The position numbers were made by a program, and so were the translations under genes. From contig CAIYFD010000027.1 in assembly GCA_903925425.1 (NCBI GenBank), positions 1 to 36,170 on the forward strand: a stretch of DNA of 36,170 bases. Reading direction: 5' to 3'. Positions within the stretch are counted from its first letter, which is position 1. Every line of letters begins with the position of its first letter. This document shows positions 21,559 through 25,209 of this stretch, piece after piece. The notes under the pieces are model-generated. The model did not search any database, was not told the DNA's origin, and worked only from the letters and a program-made list of their open reading frames with translations. This DNA is from an uncultured Opitutia bacterium (GTDB lineage Bacteria > Verrucomicrobiota > Verrucomicrobiia > Opitutales > Opitutaceae).

Positions 21559-21561
21559 GAT

Positions 21562-21694
21562 ATTCGATTTTTGATTTCGGAAGCGTCCGGAACCGCGGCG
21601 TTAGATTCACCCGCACCCTTCGCCCATACCAGCGAAAAAGACCGTCCGGCCCGAGTCGGGTAACAATCCGAAATCGGGAATCAAAAATCCAAAA

Positions 21695-21697
<3 letters not shown>
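21562..21697. repeat. 7-nt-phased inverted repeat pair between the UXS gene and tgt
   Basis: Left: ATTC GATTTTT GATTTCG GA (21562-21581). Right, as reverse complement: GATTTTG GATTTTT GATTCCC GATTTCG GATT (ending within the tgt stop codon). Confidence 0.8.
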
Positions 21698-22840
<1,143 letters not shown>

Positions 22841-22845
22841 GAGGA

Positions 22846-22996
22846 AACGCTCAACGTTCAACGCTCAACGCTCAACGTTCAAGTAGTGGCCGATTCGACC
22901 CGAGAACGCTTAACGTTTAACGCTTACCTTTTAAGGTCCAAGTCAGAGCACTGCAGATCGAACTTAAAGGTTAAGCGTTAAACGTTAAGCGTTCTC
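22846..22996. repeat. Heptamer array plus 34-bp near-perfect inverted repeat between tgt and trpG/pabA
   Basis: AACGCTC AACGTTC AACGCTC AACGCTC AACGTTC (22846-22880), then arms 22902-22935 and 22963-22996 containing AACGCTT AACGTTT AACGCTT and its reverse complement. Confidence 0.9.
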
Positions 22997-23045
22997 CGGC
23001 TTGTTCAGCCACACTTGACCCAGCCCCCACCCCTCCGGATATTGG

Positions 23046-23618
23046 GTGGAAGTGCTCCTCGTCATCGACAACTACGACTCGTTCACCTTCAACCTGGTCC
23101 AATATTTTGGCCAGCTGGGGGTGGAGCAGCGCGTCTTCCGCAACAACGAGATCACCCCGGCGCAGGCCCTCGCGCTCAACCCGGATCGCGTCCTCATCTC
23201 CCCCGGACCCTGCTCGCCCGCCGAGGCCGGTGTGTCGCTCGACATGATCGGCGCCTTTGCCGGCAAAAAGCCCGTCTTCGGCGTTTGCCTCGGCCACCAG
23301 GCGATCGGACACTATTTCGGCGGCAAGGTCGTCCGCGCCGACCGCCTGATGCACGGCAAGACCTCGCCCATCCTGCACAAGAACACCGACCTTTTCCACG
23401 GCCTCCCCCAGGGCTTCGCCGCCACCCGCTACCACTCCCTGCTGGTCGAGCGCGCCTCCCTCCCCGCCTGCCTCGAGGTCACCGCCGAGACCAAGGAGGG
23501 CGAGATCATGGGCCTGCGCCACCGCACCCTCCCCGTCTGGGGCGTCCAGTTCCACCCCGAGTCCATCGCGACCGAGGGCGGGATGAAGATCCTCGAGAAC
23601 TTCCTCTCACTGAATTAG
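23046..23618 (+). CDS. Anthranilate/aminodeoxychorismate synthase glutamine amidotransferase subunit
   Basis: [22 protein letters not shown]...[17 protein letters not shown]...[11 protein letters not shown]...[13 protein letters not shown]. TrpG and PabA not separable from sequence alone. GTG start. Confidence 0.93.
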
Positions 23619-23632
23619 GAACCCACCGCATG

Positions 23633-23685
23633 ATCTGGAACTCAGGAAATCAGGTTCCGAAAACTTGAGTTCCTGAGGTCCAGAT
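23633..23685. repeat. 24-bp imperfect hairpin with 8-nt phasing between trpG/pabA and nrdR
   Basis: ATCTGGAACTCAGGAAATCAGGTT (23633-23656), loop CCGAA, AACTTGAGTTCCTGAGGTCCAGAT (23662-23685); 3 mismatches in 24. Phase: GGAACTCA GGAAATCA GGTTCCGA AAACTTGA GTTCCTGA GGTCCAGA. Confidence 0.85.
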
Positions 23686-23710
23686 TCTCCCTTCCCCACC
23701 CTCTTTTCCC

Positions 23711-24692: not shown

Positions 24693-24694
24693 TC

Positions 24695-24737
24695 GATCAG
24701 ACGGATCAGTCTGATCCGACCGATCGGTCCGATCCCC
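24695..24737. repeat. GATC-rich nested palindromes between a hypothetical gene and the HIT gene
   Basis: GATCAGAC-GGATCA-GTCTGATC (perfect 8-bp arms) followed by GATC-C-GACCGATCGGTC-C-GATC (12-bp perfect core palindrome). Confidence 0.85.
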
Positions 24738-24745
24738 CTTCTGCC

Positions 24746-25084: not shown

Positions 25085-25097
25085 CGGCTGCGCCACT

Positions 25098-25204
25098 CGG
25101 TTCGGAGTTCAGTGTTTTGGGTTCTTGGTTGGGCAGACGCCTAGCGTGCGGGAATCCGAACTCCGAACTCCGAACCCTGAACTCTGAACTCAGAACCCTA
25201 AACC
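25098..25204. repeat. Inverted heptamer arrays between the convergent HIT gene and dprA
   Basis: CGGTTCG GAGTTCA GTGTTTT GGGTTCT TGGTTGG (25098-25132) versus GAACTCC GAACTCC GAACCCT GAACTCT GAACTCA GAACCCT (25158-25199). Confidence 0.9.
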
Positions 25205-25209
25205 GATTC

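Follow-up and report, generated by a model that had tools for sequence, protein, structure and literature searches.

Heptamer repeats between tgt and trpG as a probable copy of a dispersed palindrome in an uncultured Opitutia bacterium

The gap between the divergently transcribed genes tgt and trpG of an uncultured Opitutia bacterium holds an array of tandem heptamers followed by a long inverted repeat, which raises the question of what these repeats are and what became of the promoters of the two genes. The locus was analyzed within a stretch of 36,170 nucleotides (the window) and compared with related genomes, mainly a congener (G001) and a sister species (G002) of the genome that contains the window (G000). 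The element at this junction is real, and ordinary in being one of many copies.

Layout of the repeats

Both flanking genes are what the preliminary description had named them. tgt (queuine tRNA-ribosyltransferase; P0001) occupies 21695-22840 on the minus strand, with its start codon at 22838-22840, and its product is 84–97% identical to Tgt of relatives; trpG (anthranilate synthase glutamine amidotransferase; P0002) occupies 23052-23618 on the plus strand and begins with GTG. Five AACG(C/T)TC units had been placed 5 nt from the tgt start codon (complement of 22838-22840), and this is exact base for base: on the plus strand, positions 22846-22880 read AACGCTC, AACGTTC, AACGCTC, AACGCTC and AACGTTC, and AAGT comes next at 22881-22884. 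This (AACGYTC)5-AAGT block (22846-22884), recognized by direct reading, by TRF (5.3 copies) and by comparison of arrays, is a solo arm of the canonical form of its family. A linker (22885-22901, plus strand) leads from it to a complete hairpin, the left arm of which (22902-22935, plus strand) consists of GAG, AACGCTT, AACGTTT, AACGCTT, ACCTTTT and AAG, and the right arm of which (22963-22996), read on the minus strand, consists of GAG, AACGCTT, AACGTTT, AACGCTT, AACCTTT and AAG. Direct reading agreed with the earlier account of these arms, 34 nt each with two mismatches (agreement at 32/34 positions) around a spacer of 27 nt (22936-22962, plus strand), which differs from the spacers of other loci. 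The hairpin beside the solo arm is made of two arms with -CTT/-TTT unit endings. Partial complementarity of the linker to the right flank (22997-23012) forms a weak extension of the hairpin, and a weakly lengthened form of the inverted repeat has arms of 53 nt that agree at 81%; the right flank is also homologous to the flank of the right arm in G001. A degenerate three-unit pattern gave 11 matches in the window against 0.11 expected, and the stem had a folding energy of -65.5 kcal/mol on one strand and -72.8 kcal/mol on the other (z = -10 and -11, respectively, relative to shuffles).

The claim that the entire divergent gap is built of repeat material had to be corrected, because the trpG promoter (TTGACC-17-GATATT, 23015-23043, plus strand) sits beyond the element; its -35 box is conserved in nine relatives. 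The -10 box ends 8 nt upstream of the GTG start (23015-23052 in the window) with similar spacing in several relatives, so that the trpG mRNA is probably leaderless or nearly so. The ancestral tgt promoter likewise lay very near the tgt start codon. A TTG inside the array and in frame with tgt, pointed out earlier, does exist at 22861 (ORF 21695-22861), but is unlikely to serve as a start, because two congeners use the homologous codon, a GTG that is not part of the array, as the start of Tgt.

Dispersal and arm design of the AACGYTY family

The repeat proved to be dispersed. The counts in this analysis draw on roughly 475 kb from G000, 770 kb from G002 and 270 kb from G001, the sequences of G000 and G001 having been partly picked for AACG matches. 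An AACGYTY arm, with four or five heptamers and an AAGT end, was found at about 30 intergenic loci of the window's genome, in inverted pairs or singly, and no array lay within a confidently called gene. The exact three-unit pattern AACGYTYAACGYTYAAC had 67 matches in this genome and the reversed pattern none; the number elsewhere was 54 in G001, 29 in G030, 18 in G006 and 6 in G002. In a survey of the phylum, the repeat occurred in 35 of 388 genomes, with zero matches in most genomes and a maximum of 119 in one distant genome.

Analysis of 118 arrays from G000, G001 and G030 revealed exactly five units in 71 (29/50, 30/50 and 12/18, respectively), and AAGT was the commonest continuation after the array (64/118); the AAGT end also recurred in distant families (G254, G150 and G386). 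The arms, being predominantly five-unit, look like a fixed design, and the array at 22846-22880 is a standard arm, since five units and AAGT are the commonest design across these arrays. The idea that gain or loss of heptamers acts as a switch for tgt thus found no support in the genome-wide unit counts. Across loci, the arms formed inverted pairs with spacers of 7–177 nt as well as single arms, and a strict AAGT-spacer-ACTT search pattern proved too rigid for the family. The spacers of different loci shared no sequence except in double-counted copies and in one 11-nt match. Pairs of T-type arms (-CTT/-TTT), as in the hairpin between tgt and trpG, were present at two further loci (L141 and L235). 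A conserved asymmetry between arms, with AACTCTC as the fourth unit of one arm and AACGCTG in the other, was considered and dropped, the permutation tests being not significant (p = 0.95 and 0.10). Literature searches yielded no description of the AACGYTY family or of intergenic heptamers in this phylum.

Orthologous gaps and the origin of the element

The orthologous gaps fall into empty and filled ones. In genera outside that of the window (L032, L033, L034, L115 and L116), only 19–28 bp separate the tgt start codon from the trpG -35 box, without any element, and these empty gaps carry overlapping divergent promoters with TTGACC for trpG and TTGACA or TTGACC for tgt; L037 has the same promoters. 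The filled gap measures 173 bp in the window, 112 bp in G001 with an AACG hairpin, 184 bp in G006 with other sequence, and 151 bp in G002, where a hairpin of a different heptamer, GTGAAAG, stands beside a remnant AACGCTCAAGT (L112) at the position equivalent to the solo arm of the window. The trpG promoter was intact directly to the right of the insert in all four filled gaps, and the tgt -35 box, present in every empty gap, was lost in all four (Fisher p = 0.008); as three of the four, all but G006, come from one genus, the independent cases of promoter loss number about two. Scanning of the element for a sigma-70 site directed towards tgt gave no credible site, the best score (7.5) being equalled in 479 of 500 shuffles. 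The earlier conclusion that the element must contain or displace both promoters is thus right in part: the element fills most of the gap, and the ancestral tgt -35 box is gone with no credible sigma-70 replacement, but the trpG promoter lies outside and is conserved in relatives. The most economical reading of these alignments would be that the element arrived later, leaving the trpG promoter outside and displacing that of tgt. A target-site duplication was not recognizable in the diverged orthologous gaps. Other orthologous intergenic regions showed the same range, being occupied by the element, empty, or occupied by a different family.

These data suggest that the repeats between tgt and trpG are probably a copy, comprising a complete hairpin and a leftover arm, of an interspersed, non-autonomous, REPIN-like palindrome. 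Its arms would be short fixed arrays, (AACGYTY)4-5 followed by AAGT, inverted around a variable spacer, and the family would have spread through the intergenic DNA of the lineage much as REPINs do, its copies most likely being single-stranded or hairpin forms moved by a trans-acting enzyme. An ancestor of the genus may have received a copy within the back-to-back promoter region, with the tgt start codon on one side of it and the -35 boxes of both tgt and trpG on the other; this would have kept the trpG promoter intact to the right of the copy and cut off that of tgt. The tgt -35 box would then have decayed, so that transcription of tgt would begin at an as yet unrecognized point within the element or past it and give a new, repeat-containing leader. 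By default, we take the repeat to be selfish or neutral and tolerated in intergenic DNA, rather than of benefit to the host.

A cognate transposase was not found in G000 and G001, the PF01797 genes of which have different terminal repeats; a RAYT partnership appears unlikely on the same ground. The Y1 transposase genes concerned (PF01797; L205:892-1863 and L247:4328-5308) are flanked by repeats of their own (GTTAGCGTCCCGACCCCG; GGGACAGACC) and resemble TIR-associated tyrosine transposases, and in L247 AACG arms lie one gene away from the PF01797 gene. The family also departs from MITEs, which are recognized by a conserved interior and a target-site duplication: the spacers are unshared, no duplication is recognizable and full-length copies identical to one another did not turn up, a combination unusual for a MITE that has moved recently.

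Other origins were weighed against dispersal. It is unlikely that the hairpin is a selected RNA or DNA structure regulating tgt and/or trpG, whether by attenuation, by RNA processing or as the site of a heptamer-reading protein. The stem is indeed very stable on either strand, the C/T type of the seventh base is correlated between the arms of a hairpin (rho = 0.62 overall, 0.55 within G000), and in G001 the element edges on the start-codon side lie within 20 nt in 18 of 46 cases. However, the arms of one hairpin are hardly more alike than shuffled partners are (identity 0.804 vs 0.787, p = 0.035), so strong selection on complementarity was rejected, and the fifth base is uncorrelated between arms. 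A terminator role was rejected likewise: no T run, which an intrinsic terminator combines with a GC-rich stem, was found after the stem, and gene orientation is inconsistent (3 divergent and 7 convergent in G000, 11 and 1 in G001). Moreover, the sister species has an unrelated hairpin at this junction and other genera have none, and Rfam returned no match in the element region, its sole match in the whole window being a tRNA. Local slippage of a microsatellite, leading to phase variation of tgt, is very improbable; it could appeal to the closeness of the tandem heptamers to the start codon (5 nt), to the in-frame TTG and to the single unit in G002 as opposed to five in the window's genome. Against it stand the recurrence of these arms at dozens of loci, five being the modal unit number, the presence of the sequence family in distant families, the housekeeping nature of tgt and the lack of any RBS-like sequence in the array.

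Formation of the second hairpin in place by template switching, as an inverted duplication of one arm and its flank, is quite improbable as an account of the locus. It would fit the -CTT/-TTT endings of both arms, unlike those of the adjoining -CTC array, as well as the lengthening of the inverted repeat by its flanks to 53 nt and the correlation of the seventh base in other hairpins; however, the flank extension is weak (about 12/19 positions), the T-type arm pairs recur at L141 and L235, and the dispersal to other loci is left unexplained. In-place inverted duplication could account for part of the arm pairing. An integron-type, attC-like recombination site came into consideration because GYTYAAC fits the RYYYAAC core consensus, and a crude association with integron integrase exists in the phylum (23/35 AACG genomes vs 85/353 others). 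It was rejected because of its layout, all heptamers within an arm pointing in the same direction whereas attC has inversely oriented core sites in each arm, and because of the missing integrase, with none above the cut-off in G000, G001, G002 and G030; the association is mostly family structure, shrinking within families to 16 observed against 11.0 expected (z = 2.1), and the element flanks housekeeping genes rather than cassettes, which makes this origin extremely improbable. Integron integrase genes above the cut-off were present in 108 of the 388 genomes of the phylum.

Other hairpin families and known systems

Intergenic regions, delimited with a purpose-written small gene finder, exhibited a period of 7 at lags 7, 14 and 21 (z = 10.2, 9.7 and 6.0 in G000; 6.1, 5.3 and 3.3 in G002), which was not seen in coding DNA. 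Palindromes scoring at least 14 were found in 50 of the 207 intergenic regions sampled from G000 and in 73 of the 237 from G002, and in none of the shuffles, and many of their arms consist of short tandem units (6–9 nt) of unrelated families: AACGYTY, CACAGAG, CACGGAT, GGCACGC/AAGACGC, GGCGCA, GTGAAAG, TGACGAG, GGAGGAC and GAACTCC, together with GTAG-tagged REP pairs. Orthologous junctions in congeners often held another hairpin family or nothing. Where a region contained two hairpins, one lay within the loop of the other in 35 of 47 cases, against 13.4 expected from random position and 17.8 when hits in arms were discounted; in the six nested cases with an AACG hairpin, this family always formed the outer partner and never the inner one. 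Concentric hairpins of different families occur in G000, G001 and G002 (e.g., L245:354-986, L247:7136-7747 and L236:10429-10717), and G001 repeatedly shows the order AACG, GTAG, GGCACGC and TTATCGA from the outside inward. The window itself has further intergenic inverted repeats with tandem arms of 7–9-nt units at 21559-21694, 23619-23710, 24693-24745 and 25085-25209 (AATCAAA, GGAACTCA, GATCAGAC and GAACTCC), and at some of these other junctions congeners have different families or none. We entertain, as a tentative and rather unlikely reading, that one shared process, so far undescribed, moves or rebuilds tandem-armed hairpins with 6–9-nt units of unrelated families and enters existing loops; with the loop as the entry point, families would replace one another and pile up in concentric shells, and the hairpin between tgt and trpG would belong to an outer shell.

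If the dispersal of a REPIN-like palindrome accounts for the locus, competing hairpin repeats would turn over intergenic DNA at a pace indicated by the unrelated hairpins of sister species at one junction, and an insertion would be able to strip a housekeeping gene of its promoter. The empty site, the old element and the new element would then form a natural series for testing how promoters are rebuilt, and the tandem-armed, nested design would be a lead to a mobilizing activity as yet unrecognized. As far as the searched papers show, the AACGYTY sequence family, the set five-unit arm that ends in AAGT, the substitution of one hairpin family for another at the same junction in sister species and the nesting preference are new.

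Cyanobacterial short tandemly repeated repetitive (STRR) heptamers are intergenic tandem repeats in many copies, and we know of no paired hairpin design among them. The TAACTGA repeats of Beggiatoaceae also form numerous sets of two to six heptamers in intergenic DNA, with a patchy distribution across phyla and often near start codons (PMC4679880). The AACGYTY family shares the intergenic sets, the patchiness and the frequent proximity to start codons, whereas TAACTGA differs in sequence and consists of direct repeats with a single inverted case, in contrast to the inverted pairs of AACGYTY. REPINs or BIMEs and GTAG or TIR palindromic repeats are mobilized by RAYT or TIRYT; REPINs and GTAG/TIR repeats are known in Opitutus terrae, and REP dimers within other palindromes have been noted previously (PMC3116915, PMC3733652). 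As in REP/REPIN systems, inverted doublets with the capacity to form a hairpin are scattered outside genes here alongside singlets, with variable spacers and several families per genome, and GTAG-type pairs coexist with AACGYTY in the window's genome. However, each AACGYTY arm is an array of heptamers, arms and flanks carry neither a GTAG nor a CGTC tag, and a single arm does not amount to the short tagged palindrome that constitutes a REP; we therefore do not class the family as REP, as it lacks the GTAG tag and no RAYT association was recognized. In form, the family, while also near REPINs and GTAG/TIR repeats, is closest to the inverted GGGAATC heptamers of Xanthomonas. These, like GGGGAYT in Nostoc, are intergenic heptamer arrays with a preferred unit number of four; inverted pairs of GGGAATC number 70–75 cases per genome, few of them between divergent genes, and usually occupy the same gene junction in two species with differing length and sequence (PMC4692102). 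Both kinds have many intergenic heptamer arrays, frequent inverted pairs and a preferred unit number, five here and four there. In contrast to the Xanthomonas repeats, the present family has the unit AACGYTY instead of GGGANTN, a non-G-quadruplex sequence, a fixed AAGT inner end, a nested arrangement and an Opitutaceae-like host, and it coexists with many hairpin families that replace it at orthologous sites.
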